From assembly GCA_035236585.1 (NCBI GenBank), contig CP141128.1, forward strand, positions 24,271,618 through 24,335,617: 64,000 nt of DNA. Reading direction: 5' to 3'. Shown here piece by piece: positions 1,064 to 56,049 of this stretch (its first letter is position 1; each line of letters begins with the position of its first letter). The translations under genes and the position numbers were made by a program. Source of the DNA: Warburgia ugandensis. Lineage: Eukaryota > Streptophyta > Magnoliopsida > Canellales > Canellaceae. The notes under the pieces were generated by a model. It saw only the letters and a program-made list of their open reading frames with translations. It did no database searches and was not told where the DNA came from.

Positions 1064-1117
1064 CACCTACACAAGCGATTGCTTGCTGAGGCATTACTGT
1101 GGTTTGCAATGCCTTAG
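1064..1117 (+). promoter_or_regulatory. Paired inverted repeats H1 and H2 of LTR W (copy 1)
   Basis: H1 is CAAGC/GCTTG with a GATT loop. H2 follows at once, with arms 1086-1095 (CTGAGGCATT) and 1108-1117 (AATGCCTTAG) pairing over 10 positions, one of them G-U. The pair lies about 600 bp before the LTR end, and a TATA-like TATATAAAATA is just upstream at about 1039-1049. The same two-hairpin layout recurs in LTR families X, Y and Z with different stem bases. Role unknown; it could be an RNA structure near the transcript start or poly(A) site, or a protein-binding palindrome. Confidence 0.6.
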
Positions 1118-12450: not shown

Positions 12451-12479
12451 TTTTTTTCAATTTATAATCTAGCTCCATC

Positions 12480-17431: not shown

Positions 17432-17479
17432 CAAGCATAGCTTGCTAAGATATCTTAAATGATTCAATGTTTACGATAT
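17432..17479 (+). promoter_or_regulatory. Paired inverted repeats H1 and H2 of LTR Y1
   Basis: H1 is CAAGC (17432-17436) and GCTTG (17440-17444) around ATA. H2 follows, with AAGATATC near 17447-17454 and GATATCTC near 17474-17481, plus a short extension of TTAAA against TTTA. It is slightly less perfect than the Y2 copy at 51287-51338. Confidence 0.55.
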
Positions 17480-18075
17480 CTCAAATACAGGGAAGGAGAG
17501 TTAGGAGCTCAAAACCATAGAAGACGTGAAGAGAATAATCATCAAGGTATACCCCTTGAAGACATATATGTTTCTTTGTTTGAGAGTATTGTATTAGAAT
17601 GAGAGTTTCATTGGGTGGTGAGCTTTGAGTTTGGATTATGTAATTTGGACAAGTATTATAATGGATTTGGCTGTACTGTGAACTACTGGATGAATTCTAG
17701 AATTTAAAGTTAGGATTAGAGGATAAATTACAGAGTTTAACTATGGGAAAGTAGATCCACATGATAGGATCTAGCCTAACAAATGAATTAGGCAAGGACC
17801 ATGGACCCAATAGGCAGATCTAGTGATCTAATGTCTAAATAGAATGAAATTAATAAGGACTCATTGTATCCATTAATACCCAGGAGTTTATAAATGAGAC
17901 CTAGGGATGGGTTAAAGTGATAAAGGACGCGACTCCAGGAGACTTTGAGGTAGGTGTTCTATCGCCACTAGACTTTTTAAAAGAGCCATGATTGTTTTGA
18001 GAATGCATGTTTTAAGTATAGGAATATGACATGTTTAGCAAAACCTAATTCACCGTACATATGATAAATGCCTTA

Positions 18076-18957: not shown

Positions 18958-18995
18958 AGTAGTGATAGACTCCTACTGAGTATAGTATATACTCA
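18958..18995 (+). promoter_or_regulatory. Paired inverted repeats H1 and H2 of LTR X0
   Basis: H1 is AGTAG (18958-18962) and CTACT (18973-18977). H2 is GAGTATA (18978-18984) and TATACTC (18988-18994) around a GTA loop. The same H2 occurs at 25309-25325 and, with a GTT loop, at 55077-55093. It lies about 400 bp before the LTR end, the same relative place as H1/H2 in W, Y and Z. Confidence 0.6.
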
Positions 18996-19393
18996 CCCTA
19001 TCCTTAACATTTTTCAGGATAGTTCCACTCACAAATAGAAGCCGTCTCAGGAGATATTAGTGCTACGAGCAAGTGAATAAACAAAGGAGACAACTATACA
19101 TGTGAGTAAACTCTCTACCCTTTGGACATGTATTTGTATTTATTTACCGTTGGACTGTGTACTGTGACTGGATAGACCTGGGGAAAAACATTTATGATTT
19201 CTAAAGTTTTTCAAAAACTACTTTGGCTATTGTGAAAACAAATGACACTCGGGGTTTTCAAAATAAGTTTAACACAAAAGATTTTTTGCTGCATTGCATG
19301 GTTTTTATAAAATGGTTTTCAAATAGGGATGCATCCCGCCTTAGGAATTAGATATTGCATTTAAAAATGCATGAGAAAGCCTAGGTCATCACA

Positions 19394-22812: not shown

Positions 22813-25335
22813 TGTAATGCCCGAGCAATTTACACTATTTTTAACGAAAATTGAACATTCTATAGGAAATAAACTGAATTAAATGTTTCACTTTGTTTAA
22901 AATAGTAAACGAAGGAATTTGTGAGGGAACTTGTACCATTAGATTCTACTCAAAAAATGAAATCCAACGCCTCAAAAATCACCCAAAACGGAGTTCATAT
23001 GAAGAAGCTACAGCCATTTAAAGATATGGGTATTTTTGGAAATTAAATAGAAAAACGAAAAAATGAAGAAGGACAAAAAACGCAGGGGCGTTTTGATAAC
23101 AACACCCGCTGTCGTCTTCAACCTCTAGACCCCTCCAGAAACCTATTTTTCCTAATTTCTCTAGAATACACCAGGGGAAATGGCAGCACCGCTATTGAGG
23201 GGCACTGCCTTCTCCTCTTTATAAAAACCCCATCTCCCTCCTCTTCAAAATTGTGTTTCCGGCGAAATCCGAAACCTGTCTCAACCCATCTCCCTACATT
23301 TTTTCGGCAACGACCAAGCCCTAGTCAAGCTGGCCATTCCGTTCCCATCTCCCCATTTCCCCTCTCTTCTCTGTTCTGATCTGAGATTGGGGTTTTTCCC
23401 CTTTTTCACGGTTTCCAGCGAGCAGGAGCTTCAGGGTGAAGAACAGGCGCACCCATTGGTGATGGGTACTCTCCCAGACAACCCAGGTAAGCCCCCCACC
23501 CCTTCCTATTAGGTTTTTCTTCTTCCTTGCCCAGATCCAAGCCGGATCTAGGTGTTTTCTGGCTGGGGAGACGCTGTGGAAACCAGAGAAGACGGGTTTC
23601 CTCTGAAACCCATCCAAAACCAGTTGTCACAGGATGCACCCCGTGACGCACACGAGTGACGCGTCCCTTAAGGGCCAGCATTGCGTGCATGCAAGCGTGC
23701 AGCAGGCTTTTGACTCATCCAAGATGCGCGGGGCATCTTGGGCACCAAGACGTGGCCCGCCTGTGTTGAAGACGCATTTACAGGACGTTGACTGGGACGC
23801 GTGCCGAAGTGCGCTACTTGGGCATGCATGTGCGCTTGCGTACACTGTCCTAGGTGTGGCCTTCAGGTGTGCGCGCGACATGGGACACGGGTCCTGGCTC
23901 GACCAGGGTGCACGGGGTACCCTGGGAGCTGAGACACGCCATGCTACAAGGTGCGTCCGTGCGATGATGCGCGTGCAAAACACGGTCCCTGGCACGGCCT
24001 TTGGACACACATGCATGTAAGGCGGTCGCGGTTCAACCAAAATACATGGGTGGCCTGGGAACTGGGGCATGCGGGCCTAATGAGACTTTGAAGTTAGGAT
24101 TAGACGATAAATTACAGAGTTTAACTATGGCAAAGTAGATCCACATGATAGGATCTAGCCTGACAAATGAATTAGGCAAGGACCATGAACCCAATAGGCA
24201 GATCTAGCTATCTAATGTCTAAATAGAATGAAATTAATAAGGACTCCTTGTATCCATTCATACCCAAGAGTTTATAAATGAGACCTAGGGACGGGTTAAA
24301 GTGATAAAGGACGCGACTCCAGGAGACTTTGAGGTAGGTGCTCTATCGCTACTAGACTTTTTAAAAGAGCCATGATTGTTTGGAGAATGCATATTTTAAG
24401 TATAAGAATATGACATGTTTAGTATAACTTAATTCACCGTACATATGATAAATGCTTTATGCATAGATATGTTTTGCAAAAAACTTGCATAAACATTATG
24501 CATAGATATGTTTTGCAAATAATTGCATATACATTATGAATAGATATGTTTTGCAAATAATTGCATATATATTATGCATAGATATATTTTGCAAACAAAT
24601 GCATATATTGTATGATTTGTGAGCATTGAGTTTTTGAAAGATTGCATGTCCTTGAGGGTTACTAAAAGACGTTGGGTAGCAATTGTGAGGGCCAGGCAAT
24701 TATGAGGGACCCAAAGAGGACAGGTTCTGAAAAGAGGTTTTCGCTTGTTTGATCTGATATGATTTGGGCTGATAAGCTCGTGGGAGCTATGCCGAGAGGT
24801 TTAGGTTGGCCTCCAGCCTCTACCACTATTAGGTGGATGGGTACCACGCCCAAAAAGGGTAACGTCCCTACGTCAACTGCATGTGGTACAGGGGGCTACC
24901 ACTGGTGTCACGGCACTGGGTCGATGTGTCATATGCCCCATTGAGGCTATGACCGAGTGTCCTCAAGTATTTGGGGACCACACGGCAGTGAGGTCGTGGG
25001 CATAGTTGCACCCTATGGATTGAGGATTTATTTGCATTCCATATGGCATGACATGAGGTTGGTCGCCCATACCAGATATCCATGAGTTGGATTCAGTGGA
25101 GCATCTTATGCATATCATTATGTTTATGATATATAATACTTTCAACTTGGATTATGATATTCTTTAAGTCGTCAGTATTCCGGTTTGACAGTGGTTTTTA
25201 ATATCGATATTGAACGTGATTGTTCGAACATGCACATATTTTTAAGAGCATATGATTTTAAACATAGCATGCAGTGTAATACGAGTAGTGATAGACTCCT
25301 ACTGAGTATAGTATATACTCACCCTATCCTTAAAA
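22813..25335 (+). mobile_element. 3' LTR (X1) of the Tekay-like element, cut at its 3' end
   Basis: It starts with TGTAATGCCCGAG directly after the polypurine tract. In order it holds the TTTTGATA-CACCC box at 23091, a TATA box at 23220, a CT-rich leader, a CpG-rich stretch at 23630-24070, then the X 3' modules shared with 17704 onward. It stops at 25335, before the usual terminal CGTCACA, where a reversed X LTR begins. Its left part does not match the 5' LTR of the same element (Y-type), while its right part does. Open frames of 94-147 codons in the GC-rich part are not genes. Confidence 0.75.
23220..23227 (+). promoter_or_regulatory. TATA box of LTR X1
   Basis: TATAAAAA precedes a pyrimidine-rich leader. 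It lies about 130 bp after the conserved TTTTGATA box at 23091, a spacing repeated in the other X LTRs. Confidence 0.55.
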
Positions 25336-26215: not shown

Positions 26216-27522
26216 TTTGGAGAATCAAGGTTAGTTTGGCCCATGTTTTATGGGTTTAAGAGTAGTTGGTCTTATTACTTAGGCATTAGGGGCCATCCCT
26301 ATGCATATGGGTGTCCTAAGGTCCTAATTGGGCCTTGGTATCCTCAGTTTTCCAAAGGTCTAGCGGCCACGCGCCACCATCCTATTCTAAGGGTCATGCC
26401 CACCTTTGATTAGGCCTTGATCAGGGATTTTATAGTTTAGGTGTGTCCGCGTCGTCGACACGGACACAACGCCTTTTGCGGTGCCTCAATCGGAGCCCTA
26501 GATCTCAAGTTATAAGCGTTTTAGTGTCACACATATATAAGAGCCTTAAGAGTGAAAAGGCGGGATGCTAGGGCGCTGTGCGTCAGCGTCATGCGCTCCG
26601 GCTTCCTTAAGGAACGAGAAAACCCAGTATCACTAGCATGCTATGCATCTGCAGCGTGCGCCTCAGCAGGTCCATCTACAGACGCACCGAGTTTTCCCGC
26701 CCCTCTCTCTCTTTTGTGGGCACGTGCCCGGACGCGCCCGTTTGTTTTTCTCCAAATGCGTTGATGTGTTACGTTCTGACTGGAACGTTCAGTCCGTCTG
26801 GGGGACTGGGGCTTCCTCAGGACACCCTGGTTTGACCCTGTCGAACCAGTGTAGCCCAGGGAACGTCCCTGGGTCCTTAGTGAGTCTCCACGGCTCCATT
26901 TTGCATGATTTTTCATGCAAAAACTTAGGGAAATTGATCCTAAAACTACTGTGAAGATGGGTTTTGAGAGATCTTGGGCATACCTAGCTCATTGCTGGGT
27001 TTTTCTCCTTGTTTTCCCTCTAGGTCACTCCTCCACAACAGGTTTTCTTCAACCTTTTGGGCTGCCATTAGAGCCGCCCAAGAGCTCTATTTATAGAGCT
27101 ATGAGAGGGTTCTGAAGGGGGCTTTCACTGCCTTTGAATGGCGATGGAGAAACCTCCAGAATGGCAGTGATTTCTCCTCCAATCACTGCTATTCTAGAAC
27201 CCTCTAAGAGGTTGAAGATGAAGGGTGCCCGTATCAAAACGGCTCCTGTGTTTTGCAGGCTAAATCCGTTTTTTGTAAAAATTACATTTTTGCCCCTAAA
27301 CTTCAAAGGGCCATAACTTGCTCATTTTAACACCGTTTTAGGTGATTTTGGTCTCATTGGATTCCTTTTTCTAAGATGCACCTAATGGTACCATTTTCAA
27401 GACCAAATTTCTGGGTTCAGTTAAGGTGAATAGTGAAATGACTAAAATGCCCTTATCTTCAAAAACTGATCTTTTCATTGCTTAACTTGGAATTTCAGTA
27501 TTACAAAATTGAAGTCATTACA
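25336..27522 (-). mobile_element. X-type LTR (X2), reversed, 3' end missing
   Basis: Read on the minus strand it starts with TGTAATGACTTC at 27522. It follows the X3 LTR of 52832: the TTTTGATACGGGCACCC box (27239-27222), a TATA box (27095-27088), a leader, a CpG-rich patch (about 26860-26440), GGTAGAGGCTGGGTGGCC near 25775, and the 38-bp repeat. It ends at 25336 without the LTR 3' terminus and abuts X1. The open frames in the CpG-rich patch are opposite-strand by-products. Confidence 0.75.
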
Positions 27523-29265: not shown

Positions 29266-29317
29266 CAAGCATAGCTTGCTGAGATATTCTAAATGTTTCA
29301 TGTTTACAATATCTCAG
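29266..29317 (+). promoter_or_regulatory. Paired inverted repeats H1 and H2 of the mosaic LTR
   Basis: H1 is CAAGC/GCTTG around ATA (29266-29278). H2 is CTGAGATATTCTAAA (29279-29293) against TTTACAATATCTCAG (29303-29317), pairing at 14 of 15 positions. It lies 318 bp before the LTR end. Confidence 0.65.
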
Positions 29318-29446
29318 ATGTAGAAAGACAGGAGAAGATGTACACAACAAAAGGAATCTAGCAACCATTAATATAATGTTATAGGGTCTATACAAGTGAA
29401 CCACTAGATGGGTCTTATTTTCAGAAATAAATTCTATCTTCTAGAA

Positions 29447-29635: not shown

Positions 29636-31485
29636 GTGCACACCATCCTTGACCCAATTAGACCCTTCAATACAATTCAACCACTCTCCCGTTTGGCTAA
29701 AGAATCATGCATGTGAATCCTTGAGGAAGGAGTATTGAATAATCACTAAAAGAAACTATGGGAATGGAAGCACAATTAAGAGATCTAATGGTAAGGAAAA
29801 TCTAGGAAACGAAGAGTATAATCAATGGATTCGAGCTGATTTTTCCTTGGCTATAACTTCAATGGAAAAAGACCTTGGATCTTTTGATCAATCAAGAAAG
29901 AAAAGCTAGAAAAATAGATGGCACTTAAGGAATCCTATGCATGAGACTTAAGCACACAAATGAATTCAAGACAATGAAAAATAAAGATCAAAAGAGGAAT
30001 GAAATAACCTTTAATTGAGAACTAAAGGACAAAGGCTTGGAGCTATGTGTGAAAGACTTGGAAGACAATTGCTCAATGGAAAAAAAAACAACATAGAGGA
30101 TTTGAAGGAGAAAGGAGGGGCGGAGACATCTCCTCTAAAGGAGGGTGTGATCTCCCCTTCTCCATACTTTTTTTTTTTCATGCAAAAAACCCCATGTTAG
30201 TTTATATGTTCTGGGAACTTCCTGATCTTGATTGATAGGTGATCCTAAGGTGAATATGATATGGAGATAAAAGGTAAGGCTGGGATTATATCTTAGGCAA
30301 CCAAATAAGAAACATTAAGACCACTAAAAGGAGGGAGGCACCTACTTTTTAGGGTGGGTCATCTCCTCCTTGTAAAAATCCTAAAAGAGATTTTTGAATT
30401 GGAAAGAGAGGTGGATGAAGATAGTTGGAGTGAGAAGGAAATAGATAATAAAGAAAGGTGAGGTGGAAAGAGGTGATTGTGTAGTGGGTTAGGAAGATGG
30501 TTGAATTAGGTGGAATGCATGGTATTAGAAGGGGAGAAAGCTCCTATTTTGTAAGAGTTTCATGTGGAACTCCCTTCCTTGAGTGTAGTTGACATGGAGA
30601 GGTGGAAACAGAGGAAGAAAATAGAGAAAAGATAGGGAAGAGAGGGAAAGATAGGGAATGAGGTGAAGTGAGGTGATTAGGTAGATCTAGGATTGATGGG
30701 ATGGTTGAAGTGGTAGTATAAAAAGGTGGGACTCTTAGGTGGGAAGGTGAAAAATTCATAATGCTCTTGTATGGTGAGGTGGAAAGTGAGAAGAAAAGTG
30801 AAAATTAAGATGGAAAAAGTGAAAAATAAGATGGTCACTTCCTATTGGTCCACATGCATGCTTTTCCATTGATTTTCACCCAAATATCATTTCGTTATCC
30901 TCTTAAAAACCCCATCACATTTGCTTTAGATTCTCCTCCAATCATGGCCTTCCATATAGCTTGGCTTAAGTGGCTTGATGGGCATGGCATCATTGTTGAC
31001 TTTAGAGGCTCTTTTATCTTGGCTTGGTGGCTCAACTCTCCAGCTTTGATGGCTGGCTAGGCTCCTTAGCTTGTCAACTTCTTCATGACTTACATGGCTT
31101 TGGTGACTTAAGTGAATCTCTTGCAAAGGTGGTAGACTTTGCATGGCTTGTGCATGGGCCCACTTTAGTCTCCTATGACTTCTCCAATTCCATCCTTTAC
31201 ATGCTTTAAGGTGATTTTGATCCTTGATCTCACTTTGGATTGATGGCATCAACGATCTTGACTTGATCTTTTGATCTTAATCTTCAATTTTCATCTCAAT
31301 CGATCTCGACTATTTGATCATCATCTTAACTCCTACAAAAAGTCAAAAAATCTAATCAAATCTTAAAAAAAGATTATTCACATACTTACCTTGGATTAAC
31401 ATTTGAACCTACGAAATAACAAATATTTGATTTATTAGCTTAGAAATACACATGTTATAATTTTTAGCCAAAAACCCTAATTTTC
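29636..31485 (-). mobile_element. Athila-type LTR-like segment, reversed
   Basis: Its reverse complement follows 8330-10050: the start near 31440-31485, the GATCAAAAGATCAAG words near 31270, the short repeat field at 30940-31190, the leader, and GAAGTTATAGCCAAGG near 29860. It borders a forward Athila integrase on the right and ends at the mosaic LTR terminus on the left. It is non-coding. Confidence 0.55.
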
Positions 31486-32657
31486 TTTTGCAATGACCAT
31501 GCATGCAATGGACATTTCAATTCTACAAAGGCAACCTTAAATATTTTGCAGTGTGATTTTTATTGGCCCACCATTTTTGAGGATTCATATGCTTACTACA
31601 TAGCATGTGCTAGATGTCAACATTTATGGAGCATGGGAAAAATAAATATGATGCCTCTGCACCCCATTCTTATCATTGAGCCTTTTGATGATTGGGGCAT
31701 CAATTTTATGAGACCTTTTCCTCGCTCTTTTGGTTATTTGTACATCCTTTTGTGAGTGGAATATGTGTCAAAATGGGTGGAACCCATATCATGTAAGATC
31801 AATGACCACATGGTAGTGGCCAAGTTTTTAAAGGAAAATTTATTTGCACACTTGGATACATCTTAAGCCATAATTAGTGATGGGGGAAACACTTTTGCAT
31901 TAGTGTTTAAGAACTTAATGAAAATATGGTGCTACCCATAGGATTGCCACCCCTCCCCTTATCATCCTCAGACTAGTGGATTGGGCGAAGTGTCAAATAG
32001 GGATATAAAGAAAATCTTAGAAAAGATAGTCAATCCAAATAGGAAAGACTACTCTTTAAGAATGCTTTATGGGCCTATTGTACTACATACAAGACCCCTA
32101 TAGGCATGTCATCCTACTACTTGGGCTATGGAAAGCCTACCACCTACCAATAAAACTAGAGAATAAAGCATTTTAGGCCATTGAAAAACTCAATTTTGAC
32201 CTAGATAATGCTATGACACATAGAAAGCTCCAACTCAATGCATTGAATGAGCTAAGGAAGGATGCATTCAAGTTTTCCCAGATGTACAAAGGGCGCATGA
32301 AAAAAGCCATCATGATAGACACATCCTACGAAAGTCCTTCATCCAAGGACAAAAGGTACTCTTGTATAATTCTAGTTGCATTTGTTTCCTAGAAAGCTTC
32401 ATTCTCTATGGATTGGACCATACATAGTAAATACTACTTACCATCATGGGGCCATCTAGATAGAAAAGGATGGGGAGATTTCTACACTAAATGGGCAAAG
32501 GTTGAAACCCTATCAAGAGTTAATCAACCCTGAAGTAGAGGAAATCTTGTTAGAGGAACTAGTCTATCAAGACCCACCTTAGCATGTTCCTTGATACATA
32601 AATACACCATAAAATTTGCAATCATCATAGCACTGGATGTTTGGCTAAAGACGTTAA
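31486..32657 (+). mobile_element. Athila-type integrase fossil (split by a later element)
   Basis: This is a forward fragment of Athila pol covering the integrase. A 69-codon frame at 31546-31755 shows FYWPTIFEDSY, CARCQ from the zinc-binding region, and WGINFMRPFPRS at the start of the catalytic core. Further on, YHPQTSG (about 31961) and [12 protein letters not shown] follow the core. The C-terminal stretch with a GPY-like block and NGQRLKPYQ lies near 32430-32515. Integrase joins element cDNA to host DNA. The copy has several breaks. Its continuation past pol, with the clade's GGCAATCC-like segment, resumes at 43691 after the inserted Tekay-like element. Confidence 0.88.
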
Positions 32658-32662: not shown

Positions 32663-35600
32663 TGTGCCACCCTAGGTTTTTAGAACCTTTTCCCAATTAC
32701 TTATAAGAATAATAAGAATATGTTTTATAAAATAGGAGGGATCATTAACTCAGCGTTCAAAAGAAATGCCCCAAAAGGAAACCTCAAGGGTCATCCAAGA
32801 TCCAAAACCACAACAATAAATAGAAATGAAATCGTCGATACGCTGAGCAAGCTCAATCTAAAACCACAAAAAATCAAACACAGTCATGAAATGACAATAA
32901 TAATGATAAGTCCAAAATCCCCCAAGGTCCATTCATGATCACCACATCATACACACATCACGAAGTAAAGGTATATTATAGGAATAGTGTGGGTCCATTC
33001 TATGCAAAATATCAACATCCATGTAAAGCCCAAAAAGGCTATCGACAAGTTGAAGAGACATACACTAATTGGTCTCTGAAGCACAAAAAGGAAAATAGTC
33101 CTCGAGGTCCTTGCTCAATCGATGCTACTCCACCTGCTTACCCTTACCACTATCGCACTCCAAGTCTAAGGCATTGCAAAACAAAGAAATGTGTCAACAA
33201 GCTATCTCTTGTGTAGGTGATTCACATTCAATAATAAATATGATGAAATCATATGGCACGAAGTATCAAGATCATGGTGAATCTCATAAGATGAATATAT
33301 AACAAGCATGTAAAACCTCAAACATCCATGAGAAATAATACAAGAAAATCATGATATAAACAAATCGGTATCACTTTAGAGCATCATGGCATACAAGGCA
33401 TGAGAAATACATGGATATATGTCCATTAAAACAATACGAATCTGTGTCCACAGAATAATATGAATGCACGTCATGACAAATAGGGCACCATGCAAAAGCA
33501 AGCCCCAATAGTGTTCCATGACACTCAATCACCAGTAATGAGTACTCATACCAATCCTTGGGTCCTCTTGTGCAGCTTACATTAGCCCCCGGAGTCACTC
33601 ACGGCCTAGGCTCAGAATTACCCCGGTTCACCCAACATATAAATACTACATGAGCATACAAAATAAGAATATGGACTACAATACTATAATGGCAACCACA
33701 CAAGGATGTCAACCACTGTCACTCCTCGTTGACACCATAACGGAAGGCTTCCTCTGCTCCCATGGGGGGGAACAGACCTGTAGGGGAGACTACCCATGAT
33801 ACCACCACCTATGTACTTAGCCCTCTCAAGGACGATGCCTAATCATCATCATCACAAAGTCAAAGGGCAGGTGGCCAACCCTACTACCCTCCTAGCATAG
33901 TACCCACTTAGTGGAAGCACCCGTCATAAATCAACAAATATGCCATAAACCATGGAAAAACTCTCATGTAAAATAACCTCAATAGGTACAATCAAAGCCC
34001 ATGATAAAGTATAGTCCATCCCATGTAAAACATGGTTATTCGTAAAATCGAATGTCATGCTACCAACAAGAACTAGGAAACAAATTTATGTAAACATGGT
34101 AAGATGCAAAACACATGCCTTAAGACCTTTAGATAATCAGTCATGATCAATGAAATCATGAAGAAATTTTGAATAAAATCACCTACCTCAATAAACGTGG
34201 TACTCCAATCAAGCATGTAAGCGATGTCACATCATGTGCTCTGATGTACCTATCACATCAGAAGTCATCTAACACTTGGTGTTCTTACATCTCAAATTAA
34301 TAAATCCAAGTAATAACATCATTGATCTAGCAGGTAATCCCAGATTAATGGCCTAGATCATTTGATTAACCTTTAATTAAGTCAATCCTGAACTAGCTAT
34401 AGATTTATCTAACATTTAGACAACATCTACATTCTTTGATCATCAATCTATGTCATAATTCTTTTAATTAATGCCCCTTAATCAATAAATGGGTCAGTCT
34501 CTAGCTTTTCATGAAGTTTGGTGACGATCTAGCCATTGGATCGCTCTATTTCACTTATAATCAACATCTGATCATCAATTCGAATCCTTGTCTTCATGAT
34601 CCTTCTAATTTCAATGTTTATTTAGTGATTTACACATATCGCAATCATTACACATTGATCTGCTCTAATTAGCCAATCCTAAGGTACCTGATCAGATCAA
34701 CAGTCAAGATCACTTTTTGTGACAATTACATGAAATATACTCTGCTAATCCTCTAAATCGTCTTATATTTGATGCATACAATCAAATTCTAAAGCTTGAT
34801 CATCCATTGATGGCCATCCGTAGGTTATTTAATAGTATTTTGTGATTTGACTAATTAAAAGCATTCAAATCAAGGTCTGCTTCGTCAAGACAATTGTAAT
34901 AGATCTTTCAAATCACGACTTGGAACTCTGTAGTCCCAAAATCAAGTTTTTTATGAATGGACTGTCTAAATTAATAAAAAATCAATTTACAATCATGCGA
35001 TGTCACGAGGAAGTGTCATGTGATGTGCGTACAGAACACGTGTGCATCCTGCCATGTGGCAGCGATGCTGCACGTGCGTGGGCATGTGCTGAGCATGCAT
35101 TATGTGCTACGGGTGTCTAAGTGAGTCCTAGGCGCTCGACGCAGTTGCCATCACTAGAGACTATGTTTGGACTTTGGATCACCATCAGTGACTCTAATAG
35201 TATCCAAATTTAGTGATCTTTATATAGTTTTGGCTAAATTTTCACGTACTTTCACTTTCCAACCTTCCCATAAACTAATTTTGCATGGTTTTGGGGTTTT
35301 TGCTCAATTTTCATCACATTTACAAAATTTATCCTATTCACTACTTTTCACATTTTCTAGTGTCCTTAACCATTGGATTCCTAATAAATTTTATGGGTTT
35401 GTTCCTAGTTCATCATGCACATGATGAATGGTTCAGATCATCACTCTAACACCGTTTCATTGGGTTATTTTGACAAAAAATAGTAAGCCACATTCATTCA
35501 CCAAAAAAATTACATTCCATGTTATTTTTTGATGTTAACAACAAAAAAACTTAACTTACAAACCTGGAATGGAAAGGAGGAATGATGATGGGACTTACCT

Positions 35601-40287: not shown

Positions 40288-43200
40288 TATGACACCCCAA
40301 ATTTTTAGAACATTTTTCCAACTACTTATAAGAATAAAAATAATTTTTTTTAAAAAATAAGTAGGATCCTAGAAAGTAAAACTCACAATTAACATAATTA
40401 ATGCAGGAATCAAAAGAAAACCCCAAGGGTCATCCAAGATCCAAAACCACAACAATAAACAAAAATCAAATCATCGATATGCTAAGCATGCTCAATATAA
40501 AACCACAACAAATCAAACACAGTCGTGAAAAGACAATAATAATAAGTCCAAAATCCCACAAGGTCCATCCATGATCACCACATCATACACACATCACCAA
40601 ATAAAGGTACACTATACGAATAGTGTGGATCCAATCTATGCAAAATATCAACATCCATGTACAACCCAAAAAGTCTATCTACAAGTTGAAGAGACATACA
40701 CTAATCGGTCTCTAAAGCACAAAAGGGAAAATGGTCCTCAAGGTCCTCGCTTAATCGATGCTGCTCCACCTACTTACCCTTAGTGCTATCGTACTCTAAA
40801 TCTGAGGTATTGTAAAACAAAGCAATGCCTCAACAAGCTATCGCTTGTGTAGGTTATTCACATTCAATAATAAATATGATGAAATCATACGGCGAGAAGT
40901 ATCAAGATCACGGTGAATCTCGTAAGATGAATATATAACAAGTATGTAAAATATCTAACATCCATGATGAATAATATATGAAAATCATGATCCAAACAAA
41001 TCGATATCACTCTTGAGCATCATGGCATACAAGGCATGAGAAATACATGGATATATGACCATCAAAACAATACGAATCCATGTCCATAGAATAATATGAA
41101 TGCATGTCATGACAAATAGGGCACCTTATAAAAACAAGACCTAAGAGTGTTCCAAGACACTCAATCACCGGTAATGAGTACTTATACCAATCTCTGGGTC
41201 CCTCCCGTGCAGCCTGCATTAGCCCTCGTAATCACTCACGGCCTATGCCCAGCTTACCCCAGTTCACCCAACATATAAATACTATATGAGCATACATAAT
41301 AAGTGTATGGGCTGCTATGTTGCAGTGGCAACCATACAAGGATCTCAACCATTGCCACTCCCTATTGACACCATAACGGGAGACTTCCTCCATCCCCATG
41401 GGGGAAAATGGACCCTTAGGGGGGATTACTCATGATACCACCACCTACATACGTGGCCCTCCCAAGGGCAGTGTTTAATCATCATCATGACAAAGTCAGA
41501 GGGCGGGTGGCCAATTTTAGTGCCCTCCTAACATAGTACCCACCGGGTGGAAGCACCCATCATAAATCAACAAACATACTATAAACCATGAAAAAACTCT
41601 CATGTAAAATAACCTTAATAGGTACGATCAAAGCCCATGATAAAGTATAGTCCATCACATGTAAAACATGGTTATTCATAAAATTGAATGTCATGCTATC
41701 AATAAGAACTATGAAACAAATTTATGTAAACATGGTAAGACACAAAACATATGCCTCAAAAACTTTAGATAATCAGTCATGATCAATGAAATCACGAAGA
41801 AATTTTGAATAAAATCGCCTACCTCAATAAACGAGGTATTGCAGTTAAGCATGTAAGCAATGTCATGTCGTGCGCTTTGACGTACTTATCACATCATAAG
41901 TCATCTATCACTTGGTGTACTCACATCTCAAAATAATAAATCTAAGTGATAACTTCATTGATTTGGCAATTAATCCTTGATTAACGGCCCAAATCATTTG
42001 ATTAACCCTCTATTAAGTCAATCCTGAACTAGATGTAGATTTTTCTAACATTTAGACAACATCTGTAGTCATCAATCTATGTCATAATTCTTTCAATTAA
42101 TGCCCCTTAATCAATAAAGGGGTTAGTATCTAGCTTTTCATGAAGTTTGGGGACGATCCAATCATTGGATCGATCCATATACTTATAATCCACATTTGAT
42201 CATCAATTCGAATTCTTCTCATCATGATTCTTCTAATTTCAGTGTTTATTTAGTGATTTATGCATATCTCTATGATTACACATCGATCTAACAGTCATAT
42301 CGCTCTTTGATTGGCCAATTCTAAGGTACCTGATCAGATCAATGGTCAAGATTACTTTCTTTACAGTCACATAAAATCTACTTTACTAATCCTCTAGATC
42401 ATCTTATATTTGAGGCATCCAATCAAGTTCTAAGGCCTAATCATCCAATGATCGGCTAGGTCTAGGTTATTTAACATTATTTTATGATTTGACTATTTTA
42501 AAAGTATTCAAATTAAAGTTTTCAAGTCAAATCTAGGTTTGCGTCATTGAGATGATTGCAATAGGTCTTTCGGATCACTATTTGGACCTTTATAGCTCCC
42601 AAAATCAAGTTTTTTGTGAATGGACTATCTAAATTAATAAAAAATCAATTTACAATCACGCGATGTCACTAGGAAGCACCGTGTGACATGTGTACAAAAC
42701 ACACGCGTGCGTCCTGCCGCATGGCGGTGACACTGCACGTGTAGCACATGTGCATTGAGCACGCACTACGTGCGTCTCTGAGTGCATCTTGGGTGCTCAT
42801 TGCCATTATCACCTCTAGAGACAATGATAGGACTTTGGATCATTGTTGGTGACTCTAACAGTGTCCAAATTTAGTGGGCTTTATACCGTTTTGACTGGAT
42901 TTTTATGTAATTTCACTTTTCAACCATCCTATCCACTGATTTTGCATGTTTTTGGGGTTTTTCCTCAATTTCCATCACTCTTACAAAATTTCTCCTCTAC
43001 ATTGTTTTTCATGTTTTTTGCGGTCCTTAGCCGTTGGATTGCCATGAAATTTGATGGGTTTGTTCTTGGGTACATCCTACACATCATGAATGGTTCATAT
43101 CATAATTCTTACACCATTTCATTAAGTTATTTTCACAAAAATAGTAAGCCACATTCATTCACTAGAAAAACAACATTCCACGTCATTTTCCGCCGTTAAC

Positions 43201-47173: not shown

Positions 47174-49090
47174 GCATGCAGGCGAGGAAGGGAAAACCCG
47201 CTAGATTCTAGGCCATCGCCAAAGACAACGCCAACTCGGATCGACGAACCGACCAGTCCTGTTGTCCAACACGACGAGATGAACAAAACCCCCAAGGTTA
47301 TTGGGGGATCCAATGTGATCTTTGTAATGACCCCAAATTTTTGTAAATTATTAAAGAAAATTAATAAAGTTTGAATTTTTAGAAATTCTAGGTTGGAATA
47401 TTAGGTTATTGAAAATTCTCTTTTTATAGAGATTATATTATGAATTAAAACATAGAAATTATGGATGTACTTGGAAAACTGATCGAAACAACATTAAGTA
47501 CGTTCAATTCTGAGTTAAAATGAAAATTCCTTAATTTTTCCATTTGGGGGTAAAATGGTAATTTTACCCATATCCCATATCCAAGAAATAAGACCTCAAT
47601 ATTCATGAAGCACTTAGAAATATAATTCCAATGCCACTAAGTACACTCGATTCTGAGTTTGGACAAATATTGCCTATTATTCTCCAATTTTGGAGTTAAA
47701 AGGGCAAAAAGGTCTTTTTACATAAAAGTGGGGCCCACAAAGTGGGCCAACGTTCTAGAAGCACCAATAATTGCTTAGTGCATTATTGTTGATAGTGGAT
47801 ATTGTAGTGGGAATGGAGAATGCATTAGTAATTAAAAATTCTAAAGTAATAAAATATCTTATCAAAAGAAATGATAAAAAATTCAAATTTGGCAATAAAT
47901 ATGTCGCAAAAATTTCCAAAAATTTTCACAACCTTAACCACAAAATTTCCAAATCTTCCTTGGAATTTCAGACCCAACTTCCCCTTCATCCCTCCCCAAA
48001 CTCTCTTTTCCTTATTTCTCTCTCCTCTTTCTAATTGGAACAAGAGACCTAAATTCACTTAGGCACTCTGTTCCAGGAAGAATCTCATCAATTTTACCAT
48101 CCATAACATCCTATACTACAGTATATAGAAAAACCCCAAATCAATTTCAAGATCCAACGATTCCAACAATAGAAAATCACAAAAAGGTGGACAATCGGGC
48201 TATATTATCATCAACTAGTAATTCTCTCAAATTGGGCATCAATTATATTATTTTTCTCCAATCAGGTAGGTGGAACTACTTCCCATACATATTTATTATG
48301 GTTTCGTGTAATTTTTATTTTTTTGTAATTTAATTTGAATGAAAAATGGTAAAAATAAAGTAAATACAAGAGCCTTCAATTTATGGTGATAGAGAGCTCA
48401 GATGGAAATTATGAGCTCATAAGGGTCCAAAACCCCTAGGGTACAATTTTTAAAAAAATCTAACAAGGTTTGGACCTTCAATTGAGAGAGATTAATTCTG
48501 TTGGGCCTAGTTCAAATCTGGACCCTAGGAATGGCTGTAAACTTCAATTTAAGATTGTAGAGTCATATGAACTCCAAATTGAGATCGGAAAGAAGCTATG
48601 GAAAGCTTGTAATTCTAGTTTCTACTGAAGTCATAATATTTTTAAAACTTATTCCTGAATTATTCTGTATTTTGGAAATAAGTGTCCAATTTCTAAGATC
48701 TTCAAGATTTGAGGTGATCAGATCTTGGAAATTTATTTTAATGATGATATAATAATATAATAAAGTAATATCTATGGTTAATTTGGACAGATCTTGGATA
48801 AATTAGGGGATCTACCCTTTATGGTAGAAAAATCCTAAAAATACAAAGGGACCCACTTGATCAATATGATCAAGTATGATCAGATCCTTGGGATGGATTA
48901 AAGGGATGATATTATGATGGAATCTAGTTAGATCATGGATGAAATATGACAAAATCAAGTGGATATGATTTTTGGATCTTAATGGATTAAAAGCCCTAAA
49001 GGTAATTAAAACCCTTAATCTAAAGGAAAACACCTAAGATCTAATGGTTGGATCATATTTAAAGGTTTATAATAATCTTAATAAAATTAT

Positions 49091-49196
49091 TTTAATTGTC
49101 TTTTATTGGATATAGAAGTGTAAATGTGATTTATGTTTTAAGTTTTAATTGTCTTTTATTGGATATAGAAGTGTAAATGTGATTTATGTTCTAAGT
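49091..49196 (+). repeat. Tandem duplication of about 52 bp shared by Y2 and Y3
   Basis: Two head-to-tail copies contain TTTTAATTGTCTTTTATTGG and GTGTAAATGTGATTTATG. The same duplication occurs in Y3 at 63738-63845, but Y1 (near 15110) has a single diverged copy. It is a shared derived mark joining Y2 and Y3. Confidence 0.8.
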
Positions 49197-51286
49197 TAGA
49201 AAGCATGATAGTGTAATCTTTAAATTTTAGTATGATATGCCCTAAATGAGTAATTTGTTAGTAGATTTGATTATCTTAGGATCATGTTAGTGTAAATTAG
49301 GATTTAAACATGATTTCATTATGATAGAAGATGTGTTTCATAACTTAGGATCATGTTAGTTTTATTTCACTAGGTTAAGTTACATTCATAGGAAGAATGT
49401 TAGTATATAGTTGTTAAACTTATATTTGATTTATGCTTTCAAGTTGATGATTTACTTATTGTCAAATTTTATTCAATTGTTAAGATATAAGGAGCATAAA
49501 TCACCAAAAATGTAAACTAATGAAATATAGAAATTCATGGACAACTAAGATGAATGAATGATTTTGACTTAATAAGGGCTATAGTTAGTAGGACAATATA
49601 AGGAATGATTTATCATTTCCTTGGCCCAAAGTAGGAAAATAATGAACATCCATGGATGACATTGTGCATATCCATGGAAATTAATTAAAATCAATTAGAG
49701 AAGAGACTTAAGGTAAAGAGCTCATAAGAACCTTGTCAAAGGTTGAGCTAGTACCACTCCAGTGGACTCTGAACATTGTGGTTATAGGGGGTATACAAGA
49801 GCCAAGTGCTTTTTCCTCACCTCCCAATGACGTAAGAGAGGTCTAAACGCCTCCTTACATGAGGGTTGTATTAACCACTTTTTGAGTAGACTTTAACTGG
49901 TAAGTACTAGTCATCCTGAAATAAGGAGGAGTTGTCTAGTGATAGGAAGAAATAAATTATCTTCAACCAAGTAAGACACTAACTCGTTGGATAATAATAA
50001 GAACATAAAAAGATAGCAAATTATCTAACCCTAATAACAATAGTAAGTGAGATAAGGATGATCAAATAAGATGAGATCTTGTATGATAAAAAACAATAAG
50101 GAAAAAGAAACATCAATGTAAATTAGATTGTTATGTATGATATAGATAGTATTTGTATAGATGATATTAAACCCATGGATATATGATATTCAAGGAAGAA
50201 AGATTCATATCATCCTACATAGGGATGATCAAAAGACCATGTAGTATGTGCCCTTGATTAGAAAAATGACATTATACATATGATTTGACAGATATATGTT
50301 GATCGAGACTATGACAGATTTCAAGGAGTAAGAATACCTTATTAAGGTAGGTGGATTATTAAGAATGCCTTTACATGAAGATACATGTCTAATACATGAT
50401 CTTATGTTTTGAGGTATTGACATATATGATACCAATATATGAAGGTAAATACCTCAAATTGAAATATGATCCAACCAAATGATGAGGAAAATAAGTATTA
50501 AATGGTCAAGTTGAGCATTGAGAACAACCCTAAGTGAATAGGAAAGTAGAAAATATTCCAGCCCTAGATAAACAGACAAATAGTCTGATATGTATAAGTA
50601 TTATTTTACATACAAGCTTGGAGGCTTGTGGTTTTGTTTTAAATAGGCATAGGCCTGGGGATGCTATGCTAGGAGAGTTAAGAGGGTTTGGCCACCCACT
50701 CTCTGAAACTTGATGATATTGAATACCAAGCCTAAGAAAGGCTAAAAGTCGGGTGGGGCATTTATGGGAAGGCCACCACTGTGACAGCCATGGTCCTCCC
50801 ATATGGACATGGATATTGTAATTTCCACTGAGAATGGTATAAGTGGATTATTGAACAGTTATCCGAGCGCGCTGTATGGATCAAACTGCAAGCATAGTAG
50901 TCCTTGATTATTTTGCATTATGATGCATATGAAATTAGCATAGTGAAATGCCTTAAGGGATGGCATGATGAAATATCAGGTAATTGTATATTACCAATAT
51001 TTTTCCTAAGAAGGGAAATTCCCTGTATAGTAATTGGCTGAGATACAAATCTCCTATAATGAAAGGAGTTGATCATCTTTATATAGAAATGATTCTTGAT
51101 TATTTTTACAATTTTAATGGATTTGTCCTTATACAATATATATGTATAAAGGTGAACACAAATGACAAGGAAATGAGATGTCCTTATAACTAATAGTTAT
51201 CAATGAATGTGTTTATGATAGAACGAATTATGGGATACTTGAATATTGAGATTATGCTGTCAATAACTTACATTCTTATCCCCTAC

Positions 51287-51338
51287 CAAGCATAGCTTGT
51301 TGAGATATTGTAAATGTTCAAATGTTTACAATATCTCA
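51287..51338 (+). promoter_or_regulatory. Paired inverted repeats H1 and H2 of LTR Y2
   Basis: H1 is CAAGC (51287-51291) and GCTTG (51295-51299). H2 is TGAGATATTGTAAA (51301-51314) and TTTACAATATCTCA (51325-51338), a perfect 14-bp stem with a 10-base loop. It is the best-preserved example in the window, 400 bp before the LTR end. Confidence 0.7.
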
Positions 51339-52831
51339 GATATAGAGAAGGAGACTTAGGAGCTCAAGACTTGAAGAACAATTGAAGAATAAGTAATCAC
51401 CGTATATCCCTTGAAACATTGTATTAGAACATGTATTGAATTTTGAACTTTGTAATTTGGATTGTATATTTGGACAGGTATTGTAAGGATACAATGGGCT
51501 GTGTATTGTGAACCACTGGATGGATCCTGAAGTTTAATAAAAGAATATTCCTTCAATGGAATTTTATCTTATACAAAATTCTACTTATGCTATGTATGAG
51601 GTGGTGACTTAGCCTTTACAAAACAAATTCTAAAGAAAAGAATTTTCGCTTCTTTGGTTTGCAAAAACTTTTTACTCTAAGGGCCCTATCTTTACAAAAT
51701 GTATTATAAAATGTGTTATAAAAGTCCGGGTCGTCACAATCTTGACCGTCGATTGAAGAGGGGAACATCGCACGGCTAAGATTGGAGGTTTTGAGACTGA
51801 TCTAAACCAATCCAGCCCATCCAACAGTGGAAAATGCACGAAAATGTATCTAGAAGGTAAGATCTACAAAACCCTATTCTTGATTTTGAGATTTTAGTTA
51901 AATCCGCACAATTCATGCTAAATCTAGGTTTTATGGATAATCCAACAGACGATCAGACACCACAGATGAGTTCCTCGTCATAAAAAATGATAGGATGACT
52001 AGAATTATATGAATTTGAAGTAAAATAGATTGGATGATCTAGGCCATCCGATCTATCACTATTTAAACAGACACCTTATGATGTTAGATGAATGATTTGA
52101 AGTCACAGATGGATTCCTGAACCCTGAATTAGCTTAGATATGATCTCAAGTATGGAAAATATCATCCATCTCTAACCCAAGAGTTGATCTAGATATGAAT
52201 CATGGGTTCAGACCCCTGAACAGTGAAAGTGACTTACAGTCACTTAAGAAGAGTAATGAATAGCCAATCCAGGGCCAATGGCGTGGATTGGAAATCCAGT
52301 AACTGTTTTCCATTAAATTAGCTATCAACCAATAGCTAATGAAACGCCTTTTGCACAGTAATGAACACTGTCACTGTGTCTTATGCCAAATAGTGTTAGG
52401 GAAGCTAGGAGATGTCCTAGAATTGTATAACTGAACATATGTTTGTATTATTACAGAGGTGACTGATAGGGAGCGCGTACGCGAACTGAATGAAGCACTC
52501 GCGTCAGTGAATTAGAAGATCTCCAATTGAGGTAGGTGGAATTACGATTGCTACAATTTTCGCTATATATGCATGTGTATATGAATTTCAAGCATTGAAA
52601 TGAATCTTTTTGGTTTATACAAAAGATAAGATGAATGTACATGCTGAATTTAAGTTATGATTAAACTATTATGCATAAACCATGCATTATTGTGAACCAT
52701 GTGAGAGAAATGTAAGACTGATACCAGGAAATTGTGAAATGGCTCGTATGAGCGAGAGGGGTCGTTATGATGTGGGCGGGCCACGAAGTCATTATGATGT
52801 GGGTAGGTCTTCGGGCTGGATGAGTTACCGG

Positions 52832-55472
52832 TGTAATGACCCCAATTTTTGTAATATTAAAAGCCCATAAAAAGTTCAGTTTTTAAGACAAGGGTATTTT
52901 GGTTATTTCACTAGTTTCCTTGACTAAACTCAGGAATTTGGTCCTAAAATTAGTTCCATTAGATGCATCTTGGAAAAAGGAATCCAACGAGACCAAAATC
53001 ACACAAAACGGAGTTAAAATGAGCAAGATATGGCCCTTTGAAGTTTAGGGGCAAAATTGTAAATTTTACAAAAACGACTTAACCTGAAAAACACGGGTGC
53101 CTGTTTTGATACGAGCACCCCGTCGTCTTCAACCTCCTAGAGGCTTCTAGAACGGCGGTGTTTCAATGAGGAACCACCGCCATTCTGGAGGTTTCTCCAC
53201 CGTCATTCAAAGGCGGTTAGAACCCCTCCAGAACCCTCTTTAAAAGCCCTATAAATAGAGCTCTTTGGTGCCTCTAATGGCAGCCCAAAACCTTGGAGAA
53301 AACCCATCACGGAGCAGTGACCAAGAGGGAAAAACGTGGAGAGAAAACCAGTCACGAAGCAGGTACGCTCAAAAACTCCCCAAACCCATCTCACCCATAG
53401 TCCTAGGCTCAATTTCCCTAAGTTTTTGCATGAAAAACCATGCAAAACGGAGCCCAAGAGAGCCACCAAGGACCCAGGGACATTCCCTGGGTCGCACTGG
53501 CTCGATAGGGGTCGAACCAGGGTGTCCTGAGGATGCCCCGGTTCACCAACAAGCAGGACGTTCTAGTCGGAACTTCCCACGTCGACTCCCATTCGAAAAA
53601 CCAACGGGCGCGTCTAGGGACGCGCCCACAAAAGAGAGAGAGAGGCGGGAGGTTCTGCTCATCTGCAGACGCGCCCGCTGAGGCAAACGTCGCAGGCGCA
53701 CAGTACGCTAGTGTCGCACTTTGTTTTGGTTCCTTAAGGAAGCTAGGGCTCACGTCGCAGACGCGCAACGCCCTGGCATTCTGTCTTTTTATTTTTTTTA
53801 ATTTTTAAGACTCTTATGTACGTGCGACACTAAAATACTTATAACTTGAGATCTAGAGCTCCGATTGAGGCGCCGCAAAAGGTGTTGTATCCGTATCGAC
53901 GACGCGGACACATCCAAGCTATAAAATCTTTGATCAAGGCCCAATCAAAGGAGAGCATGACCCTTAGAATAGGATGGTGGCGCGTGACCACTAGAACTTT
54001 GGAAAATTGAGAATACCAAGGCCCAACTAGGACCTTAGGACACCCATAGGCATAGGGATGGACCCCTAATGCCTAAGTAATAAGACTCAACTGCTCTAAA
54101 CCCATAAAAGATAGGTTAAACTAACCTTGAGTCCCCAAACCATGTTCAGGAGCGTACGAGGACAAGAGGGTTAACGCGACCTAGTCAGGTAGGTGCTTTA
54201 TCACTATTAGATTCTTTTAAAAGATCTATTATTGTTTTGAGAACATATGTTATAAGTATATGACTTGTTTAGCATGACTTGATTTAGCATGCATATGATA
54301 AACATTTTGTACATAGACATGTTTCGTAAAAGATTGCATATACATTATGCACACATATGTTTTGTAAACAAGTGCATACATTGTATGATTTAAGTACTTG
54401 CAAAGGTTGCATGTCCTTGAGGGTTGCCAAAAGACGTTGGAGTGCCGAGGGCCAGGTAGTTGTGAGGGACCCAAAGAGGACTGGTTTTGAACAGAGGTTT
54501 TTGGCTTATTTGATCATACATGATTTGGGCTTGTAAGCTCGTGGGTGCTATGCCGAGGGGTGTGGGTTGGCCACCCAGCCTCTACCACTATTAGGTGGAT
54601 GGGTACCACGCCCAAAAAGGGCATGTCCCTGCTTCGACTGCATGTGGTACGAGGGGCTACCACTGGTGTCACGGCACTGGGTCGAAGTGTCATATGCCCC
54701 GTGGAGGTATATGATCCTGTGTCCCTAGGTACCAGGGGACCACACGGCGGTGAGGTCGTGGGCATAGTAGGACCCTATGGTTTCGTGGATTTATGTGCAT
54801 TGCATATGGCATGATATAAGGTTGGTCGACCATACCATGATAGATGTCCATGAGTTGGATTCAGTTGAGCATATGATGCATATTTTTACGATTATGATAT
54901 ATGATTACTTTCGACTTAGATTATGATATTTCTTTAAGTCATCAGTATTTCGGTTTAACAGTGGCTTTTAATATCGATATTGAATGTGATTATTCAGACA
55001 ACATGCACATGTTTTTATGAGCACATGATTTTAAAGATCGCAGGCATTATAAAACTAGTAGTGATAGACTCCTACTGAGTATAGTTTATACTCACCCTAT
55101 CCTTAACATTTTTCAAGGTGATTCCATCCACAAGTAGAGGACATCTATGCTAGTGCTACGAGCAAGTGAATGAAAAAGGAAACACTTATATATGTAAGTA
55201 AATTCTCAACCCTTTGGACATGTATTTGTATTTAATTACAGTTGGGCTGTGTGCTGTGACTGGACAGACCTGGGGAAAAGCATTTTGTGATTTCTAAAGT
55301 TGTTCAAAAACTACCTTAGTTGTTGTGAAAGCAAATGACACTCGGGGTTTTCAAAATGAATTCCAAATAAAAGATTTTTCCTCTGCATTGCACTGTTTTT
55401 TCAAATCGGGATCCCACCTTAGGAATTTAGATTTTTCATTTAAAAATGCATGAGAAAACCCGGGTCGTCACA
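52832..55472 (+). mobile_element. Solo LTR of family X (X3), 2.6 kb
   Basis: It runs from TGTAATGACCCC to CGGGTCGTCACA. Copy 1 of the duplicated block has the empty site (CTACCGGTCCC, about 509-519), so both ends are exact. The flanks read ACCGG (52827-52831) and ATCAG (55473-55477), best explained as a decayed 5-bp duplication. It holds the TTTTGATACGAGCACCCC box (53104), a TATA box (53250), a CpG-rich patch (53450-53960), two 38-bp units and H1/H2 near 55055-55093. It inserted after the block duplication. Frames of 74-138 codons fall in the GC-rich part and are not genes. Confidence 0.85.
53250..53257 (+). promoter_or_regulatory. TATA box of LTR X3
   Basis: TATAAATA lies 146 bp after the TTTTGATA box at 53104. 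In the reversed X2 LTR the same pair is 144 bp apart (27239 to 27095). Confidence 0.6.
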
Positions 55473-56003
55473 ATCAGTCCCTGGGATTTAGCCCCATTGT
55501 TTGGGGAGTTTGACACGTTCTGAGAGGTCGTTATGATGTGGGCGGGCCACGGAGTCGTTATGATGTGGGCAGGCCTTTGGGCTGGACGAGCTACCGGTCT
55601 CTCAGGAGTAAAGCCTTGAGGTGTGTCTTTGGGTTTAACCCATTGCGCCGACTCACTGCTCCAAAGAGGATAATATTGTTTGCTGCGTACTTGATGCACA
55701 CAACAACGCGTTGGTATTTGATATGTGAAATGGCTCATAAGAGCGAAGACTGGTATCAGGAAAATGTAAATGAGTTGTAAGTTTGACATGTGACTACATA
55801 ATTTTCATTTCAAATGTGTTTTGTACTAATGCATTGGTATTCTTGCCATCTTGGCGTGGATTCGTGATTTTGATAATATTAAATGATTTCAAGTTAAATG
55901 ATAATTGAATTGTTGTTTGTATGATTCAGCATTGCTAAATTGATCTATATATAATTATTATGATTTCTATTTATATAAAATATTGCATCTTACTCCACCT
56001 ACA

Positions 56004-56049
56004 CAAGCGATTGCTTGCTGAGGCATTGCTGTGGTTTGCAATGCCTCAG
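56004..56049 (+). promoter_or_regulatory. Paired inverted repeats H1 and H2 of LTR W (copy 2)
   Basis: H1 is CAAGC/GCTTG around GATT (56004-56017). H2 is CTGAGGCATTGC (56018-56029) and GCAATGCCTCAG (56038-56049), a perfect 12-bp stem with an 8-base loop. Confidence 0.7.

Follow-up and report, generated by a model that had tools for sequence, protein, structure and literature searches.

Background

In orthoretroviruses a stem-loop corresponding to TAR is a conserved structural feature just past the transcription start site, and the second loop of lentiviruses holds the AATAAA signal (PMC2664473, excerpt). In HIV-1 a one-sided deletion that opens TAR disturbs dimerisation and packaging, whereas a two-sided truncation does not (PMC3432602, excerpt), and in foamy viruses the R region combines an RNA structure with a splice donor upstream of the poly(A) signal (PMC3694450, excerpt). 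LTRs in general have been described in terms of modules, namely TATA, a poly(A) signal and TG..CA ends, and residual conservation in long R regions has been linked to stem-loops (Benachenhou 2013; PMC3601003, excerpt). According to the same excerpt, the poly(A) signals of plants are loose and the LTRs of plant Metaviridae could not be modelled because of their length variation; these elements hence lie outside that dataset, and with them the module described below.

As regards plant LTRs, a text on Del/Tekay LTRs (PMC4029996) makes no mention of a hairpin, palindrome, inverted repeat or secondary structure, a paper on LORE1 (PMC2832683) holds nothing on transcription start, TATA, R region or polyadenylation, and another (PMC11656987) holds nothing on palindromes, hairpins, inverted repeats or secondary structure. 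Titles, abstract openings and passages of open-licence PMC papers that deal with palindromes and hairpins, stem-loops or structures resembling TAR in plant LTRs yielded no description of the present motif, and the claim of an initial sequence-only reading that it is undescribed in Tekay/Del-like LTRs is not contradicted by them.

Here we describe a tandem hairpin motif in the LTRs of a 64-kb stretch of plant DNA (the window, i.e. the whole of the stretch that was analysed). It is reminiscent of the retroviral R stem-loops (lentiviral TAR and the R stem-loop of MLV and HML) in that it would lie just past a probable start site, near a TATA-like box and within a putative R region. It differs from them in residing in plant LTRs of 2.6-4.4 kb (X3, Y2), in comprising two adjacent hairpins, the second of which lacks AATAAA, and in having no known activator.

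LTR elements of the window and anatomy of the motif

The window is AT-rich (36% G+C by base counts over 64 kb) and is filled with nested LTR pieces, among which ten LTR copies of four families (W, X, Y and Z) bear the motif (Table 1); LTR bounds were taken from self-comparison of the window together with LTR-end words. The motif is typified by the word CCTAC, which in each of the ten copies adjoins a short hairpin (H1) with 0-1 base between the two (1 base in W2); H1 is directly succeeded by a longer hairpin (H2) in W, Y and Z. The end of the motif lies about 370-605 bp from the end of the LTR (19393 in X1, about 40290 on the minus strand in Z2, 56631 in W2 and 1722 in W1), which corrects the 320-600 bp estimated earlier. 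The sequence-only reading held that every LTR family keeps two adjacent inverted repeats; this agrees with the presence of the motif in four families and ten copies, but the fold is lost in Z1, X cannot be aligned with the others, and H2 is absent or broken in X2 and X3. The perfect stems that it reported for H2, of 14 bp in Y2 and 12 bp in W, were both recovered, and they rank with the longest perfect inverted repeats in the window. By eye, the H2 loops are UGUGGUUU in W2, UGUUCAAAUG in Y2 and U-rich in Z2, and the corresponding loop of X1, UAACAUUUUUC, is not UG-rich.

Table 1. Positions in the window of the motif copies and associated features
Feature	Positions	Strand	Remarks
W1 CCTAC+H1+H2	1066..1117	+	H1 from 1072; H2 partly decayed; duplicate of W2
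Y1 H1+H2	17432..17485	+	H2 mismatched, one compensated pair (C-G for T-A)
X1 CCTAC+H1'+H2'	18972..19022	+	H1' TGAGTATA-GTA-TATACTCA 18977-18995; H2' CTATCCT..AGGATAG 18998-19022
X2 CCTAC+H1'	25298..25321	+	H1' 25303-25321; copy ends soon after
Y3 (mosaic LTR) H1+H2	29266..29318	+	one mismatch in H2
Z1 CCTAC+H1+H2	33165..33217	-	hairpins 33211-33165; H1 and H2 both decayed, fold lost
Z2 CCTAC+H1+H2	40801..40853	-	hairpins 40847-40801; H2 with mismatches, otherwise W2-like
Y2 solo LTR	47323..51738	+	4416 bp, ends TGTAATGACCC...GGGTCGTCACA, ATCTT on either side
Y2 CCTAC	51282..51286	+	directly 5' of H1; probable start-site neighbourhood (start site predicted)
Y2 H1	51287..51299	+	CAAGC-ATA-GCTTG, 5 bp
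Y2 H2	51301..51338	+	perfect 14-bp stem, 10-nt loop; 1 base separates H1 and H2
X3 solo LTR	52832-55472	+	sits inside W2
X3 CCTAC+H1'	55071..55094	+	H1' 55076-55094; H2' broken; TATAAAA at -26
W2 TATA-like box	55972..55980	+	words at -29 and -27 from A of CCTAC
W2 CCTAC+H1+H2	55998..56049	+	H1 56004-56017, 4-nt loop; H2 56018-56049, 12 bp, 8-nt loop

In the self-comparison W1 and W2 also have their flanks in common past the end of the LTR, with about 94% identity, and the two copies are one old insertion that was later duplicated; Z1 and Z2 look like a probable LTR pair of a single element. Given these duplicates and this apparent pair, there are fewer than ten independent cases of the motif.

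The word TGGTATCAGAGC, which we take to be a primer site of the initiator-tRNA type, begins 2 bp past the end of X1 with 0 mismatches and is found with 1 mismatch a few bases past Z2 (at 40284, minus strand); it was not seen after Y2, W1, W2 and X3, copies that have the appearance of duplicates or solo LTRs. A primer site of this type after the LTR is a point of likeness between X1 and Z2 and the Del/Tekay elements. The ends described for Del (Tekay) LTRs, with a U3 att TGTAACACCC and a U5 att of type A with GGG, may correspond to the TGTAATGACCC and GGGTCGTCACA of Y2 and X3, the lengths of the att-like ends differing by about 1 base (PMC4029996, excerpt). In a Pfam scan of 16 distinct stop-to-stop pieces the single domain above the cutoff was an integrase zinc-binding domain (PF17921, E 1.9e-06, 31468-31752), which has no tie to the motif-bearing LTRs; a sub-threshold match to the protease RVP_2 (E 0.14) lies between Z1 and Z2, and no Pol domains of the Tekay/Del lineage with a chromodomain were found in these pieces. 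The Tekay/Del-like label assigned earlier is in keeping with the primer sites at X1 and Z2, but the coding domains of the 16 pieces do not show the lineage. A tRNA scan of the window recovered no tRNA, and a search of the 64 kb with Rfam at gathering score gave 0 matches.

A covariance model built on the seven W, Y and Z copies finds all seven, by construction, with E-values of 4e-15 to 4e-11, and recovered no further full copy in the window with a convincing E-value (the next full-length match has E 0.02, and H2 matches on the opposite strand have E 0.005 and 0.011). In pattern searches of viral contigs one pattern hit a single locus, whose 160-base piece is not LTR-like by eye, and another hit 0 loci. 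When at least 120 viral-contig loci with the H1 pattern were searched by script for a following arm resembling that of H2, two weak cases emerged, which are mutually alike and by eye unlike these LTRs. A pattern search of genome contigs gave two matches, both in bacterial contigs. Sought literally in the literature, the motif words led to two papers, both apparently on other subjects.

Two further arrangements lie beside these copies. Around W there is a repeat (5817-6164 and about 61.6-61.9 kb) with an open piece that contains a CCHC-like knuckle, recognised by regular expression only and giving no Pfam match; the LTR-end words GGGTCGTCACA also occur nearby, at 5361 and 61267, and these pieces are perhaps a gag-like part of some other element. 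At 24083-27522, X2 (plus strand) and an inverted X copy (25326-27522, minus strand) are joined tail to tail directly past the H1' of X2, with a few bases common to both sides of the joint by eye, and the X2 hairpin may have been the break or switch point.

The register of family X

The H1 of X had been read as AGTAG/CTACT. This register is doubtful, and probably wrong, because its 3' arm belongs to the word CCTAC, after which H1 comes in every one of the ten copies. With CCTAC as the anchor, the first hairpin of X (H1') is instead formed by TGAGTATA/TATACTCA, with a stem of 8 bp and a 3-nt loop as in Y, and X1 has its own second hairpin (H2') of 7 bp with an 11-nt loop. A structure-blind MAFFT alignment of all ten copies places CCTAC-TGAGTATAG of X on CCTAC-CAAGCATAG of Y, though it shifts W and Z by two columns relative to Y at CCTAC. 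Against the CCTAC register stand the loss of H2' in X3, the truncation of X2 and the retention of TGAG/CTCA of H2 in the AGTAG/CTACT register. It is also weakened by the alignments of X to the other families, which are not significant, their scores being reached by 146 (X3-Y2), 272 (X3-Z2), 225 (X3-W2) and 65 (X1-Y3) of 300 shuffles. On balance the CCTAC register is preferred for X, and we consider it the probable one.

Conservation, chance and fold stability

In BLAST comparisons covering the 3' LTR parts, W2 has a sole match to Z, of 92-96 bp, which starts in the TATA region and reaches across H2, and the sole match between Y2 and Z2 extends from CCTAC through H2 (68 bp, E 2e-4); W and Y give no match in these parts at E 1e-3, and X and W share the last 140-155 bp of the LTR instead. 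The motif of Y3 resides in a 75-bp island that is 88-89% identical to Y1 and Y2. Alignments around CCTAC outscored 300 of 300 base shuffles for W2-Z2, W2-Y3 and Z2-Y2, the last requiring a 14-base gap. Within families, identity in the motif as against the rest is 84.7/74.5% for Y1-Y2, 86.8/86.1% for Z, 95.8/87.0% for X1-X3 and 96.2/94.1% for W, and windows conserved at least as well as the motif make up 15%, 57%, 21% and 46%, respectively. Such modest conservation would be in line with copies that decay neutrally once inserted, constraint having acted on the active ancestors.

Perfect stems of at least 12 bp with loops of 3-12 number five in the window, as against a mean of 0.125 and a maximum of 1 in 40 dinucleotide shuffles. 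Two of the five belong to the motif (Y2 H2 and W2 H2), two are one TA run counted twice, and one lies at 11959. The last is a 14-bp hairpin (11959-11997) in a set of diverged direct repeats at 11847-13007. Tandem hairpins number 16 in the window and on average 2.65 in shuffles (maximum 7), with 6 of the 16 rows being the motif. As a control, 81 CCTAC sites on both strands were considered (10 motif sites and 71 others), with criteria fixed after the motif had been seen. A perfect stem of at least 5 bp directly after CCTAC occurs at all ten motif sites, Z1 passing only via a shifted stem, and at 4 of the 71 others; a perfect second stem is also present at four motif sites (W1, W2, Y2 and X1) and at none of the 71. 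If only folding energy is used to order the 81, the motif sites take ranks 1, 2, 4, 6, 12, 14, 16, 38, 42 and 51, the lowest ranks being those of X3 (38), Z1 (42) and X2 (51).

Since raw folding energy along the LTRs tracks GC content, it was discarded as a measure in favour of shuffle z-scores. A stable stem-loop is seen across the relatives, with z from -3.0 to -5.9 in six of the seven W, Y and Z copies (Y2 -5.9 for 51283-51342, W2 -5.3, Y3 -3.8, W1 -3.5, Z2 -3.4 and Y1 -3.0) and not in Z1 (+0.6). In 80-nt windows the values are -4.5 for Y2, -3.7 for W2 and just -1.3 for Z2. For X1, X2 and X3 z is -1.4, -1.1 and -1.4 in the AGTAG/CTACT register (X1 window 48 nt), and in the CCTAC register it is -3.05 for X1 (60 nt) and -1.5 for X3 with its broken H2'. 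When six LTR stretches were scanned with 40 dinucleotide shuffles per window, the motif window ranked first in Y2 (-7.0), W2 (-6.9) and X1 (-4.2) and fell outside the top five in X3 and Y1. The top window of Z2 (z -5.6) comprises H1 and a repeat located 5' of it, across the TATA-like region, without H2; besides H1 and H2, Z2 has an inverted repeat with a 9-bp stem (40880-40850, minus strand) that overlaps the TATA-like region just 5' of CCTAC. Within the X3 LTR a strong hairpin is also present further upstream, at 53144-53201 (energy -27.8, z -7.9 and -5.8 in two runs), which outdoes the X3 motif.

Promoter neighbourhood and probable place in R

A TATA-like word lies 26-29 bases 5' of the A of CCTAC in five of the ten copies, with 0 mismatches in W1, W2 and X3 and 1 in Z1 and Z2; the best TATA words of Y1-Y3, X1 and X2 have 2 mismatches (-30 to -24). 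TATAWA with 0 mismatches at -30 to -24 is found at three of ten motif sites (W1 and W2 being duplicates) versus 0 of the 71 other CCTAC sites, and with at most 1 mismatch at five of ten versus 9 of 71. In plants the spacing from TATA to the start is about 30, and with such a spacing the RNA would begin at or beside H1. R may begin at CCTAC, with the motif at the start of R. The placement in R proposed earlier accords with the distance between the TATA-like word and CCTAC in W, Z and X3, but finds no such support in Y, X1 and X2.

After the motif, AATAAA is found at offsets of 251 in Y2, 292 in X3 and 101 in X1, and there is none in W1, W2, Z1 and Z2. Splice-donor-like words (CAGGTAAGA, GTAAGT and GGGTAAGT) occur about 75-150 bases past CCTAC, at about 56140 in W2, 55194 in X3 and 40777 (minus strand) in Z2, and none was seen by eye after the Y2 hairpins. 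As the window contains 115 instances of GTAAG, both strands counted, these words may be chance, and with them the likeness of W, X and Z to the R region of foamy viruses. A block common to Y2 (51469-51511) and X3 (55213-55260), consisting by eye of TTTGGACANGTATT and then GGGCTGTGT..TGTGA about 145-230 bases past CCTAC, is perhaps part of a 3'-end signal.

Paired changes and alternative explanations

Between Y2 and W2, 3 of 11 positions differ in each arm of H2 and are exact partners, for which the probability by position alone is 1/165, and Y1 adds one compensated pair inside family Y (columns 24/45). Pairs were counted in an alignment of the seven W, Y and Z sequences, the three X copies being left out as not alignable by sequence. 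It yields three double-changed pairs (20/49, 21/48 and 24/45), since a gap in it loses the W/Z side of pair 26/43, which the direct comparison of the Y2 and W2 arms adds to give four in total. In this alignment 91.9% of the cells pair, and 30-41% do so when partners are slid by 1-3 columns; of 500 shuffles, 14 equal or exceed the alignment in covariation score and in percentage paired, 13 in double-changed cells, 159 in the count of double-changed pairs and 498 in that of pair types. The H1 half-sites CAAGC/GCTTG, as the sequence-only reading had it, are shared by W, Y and Z and are invariant bar one decayed base in Z1, with a variable loop and no covariation among these copies. If the H1' of X is homologous to H1, the difference between CAAGC/GCTTG and TGAGT/ACTCA would represent three more compensated pairs, all of them transitions. 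The covariation is thus small, with three or four paired changes. Of the paired changes claimed earlier for both arms, those between Y2 and W2 (three) and in Y1 (one) stand, but they are few, H1 of W, Y and Z contributes none, and the difference seen in X was read in the doubtful register.

So small a number would fit shared ancestry combined with chance, whereby W, Y and Z inherited a promoter block with inverted repeats and the hairpin of X is coincidental. W, Y and Z can indeed be aligned at the motif and X cannot, and other parts of these LTRs also contain hairpins with comparable z; however, perfect stems of 12 and 14 bp are rare in shuffles, the long stems differ between families at partner positions, and the full arrangement is found at none of the 71 other CCTAC sites. 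We regard this explanation as unlikely.

The symmetry might instead act at the level of DNA, as a palindromic downstream core-promoter site for a dimeric plant factor. The constancy of the H1 half-sites around a variable loop would be expected of such a site, and in W, Z and X3 the motif adjoins a TATA-like box; moreover, wobble-type cells comprise 5 G-U and 5 A-C, without the strand preference that would reveal which strand folds. A single fixed dimer site is at odds with the loop lengths (10 in Y2 and 8 in W2 for H2, 3 or 4 for H1) and with the H2 half-sites, which differ between Y2 and W2 while the symmetry is kept, making this reading quite unlikely.

Equally improbable in our view is homogenisation by template switching, in which a polymerase or reverse transcriptase crossing an imperfect hairpin changes both arms with no selection on the fold. 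Hairpins are re-copied with each transposition, and the arm difference between Y and W/Z, which includes two neighbouring pairs, may be a single clustered event. Mutations that extend arm identity in quasi-palindromes are known (PMC3820800 and PMC8604942, excerpts), but W1, Z1 and Y1 have drifted from pairing, which implies that homogenisation does not keep pace after insertion, and the placement of the hairpin beside CCTAC in four families would go unexplained. A microRNA hairpin was rejected, the stems being too short, as were insertion-site palindromes (PMC6911290, excerpt), which concern insertion target sites, have a small effect and are different from the motif.

Proposed function and implications

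By analogy with the hairpin that follows the start site in the R region of retroviruses, the motif might work as a cap-proximal tandem stem-loop, which is the reading that we prefer, at about even odds, as the most economical one. It would then belong to a core-promoter and leader module in which a TATA-like box is followed after 26-29 bp by CCTAC, as the probable start, and this by the two adjacent stem-loops, which, if transcribed and folded as predicted, would make up the first 50-60 nt or so of the transcript, where R begins. Because both ends of the RNA carry R, the motif would be present twice, once at the 5' end and once near the 3' end. The action of such a cap-proximal fold would most likely be post-initiation, influencing how much full-length RNA is made or what happens to it afterwards, such as packaging or first strand transfer. 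The poly(A) choice and translation start proposed earlier are likewise candidate roles, and the choice of expression and RNA handling over other roles is a guess and a rather doubtful one.

More broadly, and only tentatively, the RNAs of plant Ty3/gypsy-like elements may start with a conserved tandem stem-loop, an analogue of TAR and a second hairpin, which undergoes compensatory evolution and recurs in the unalignable family X, in which case cap-proximal R hairpins would be general beyond vertebrate retroviruses. Should the paired changes prove to be products of template switching, these hairpins would constitute a natural assay of that mutation process. If the cap-proximal tandem stem-loop is confirmed, it would mark, by structure, the promoter and the beginning of R in plant Ty3/gypsy LTRs and aid in placing their start sites, and it would suggest that LTR elements as far apart as those of plants and retroviruses all require a folded RNA start.
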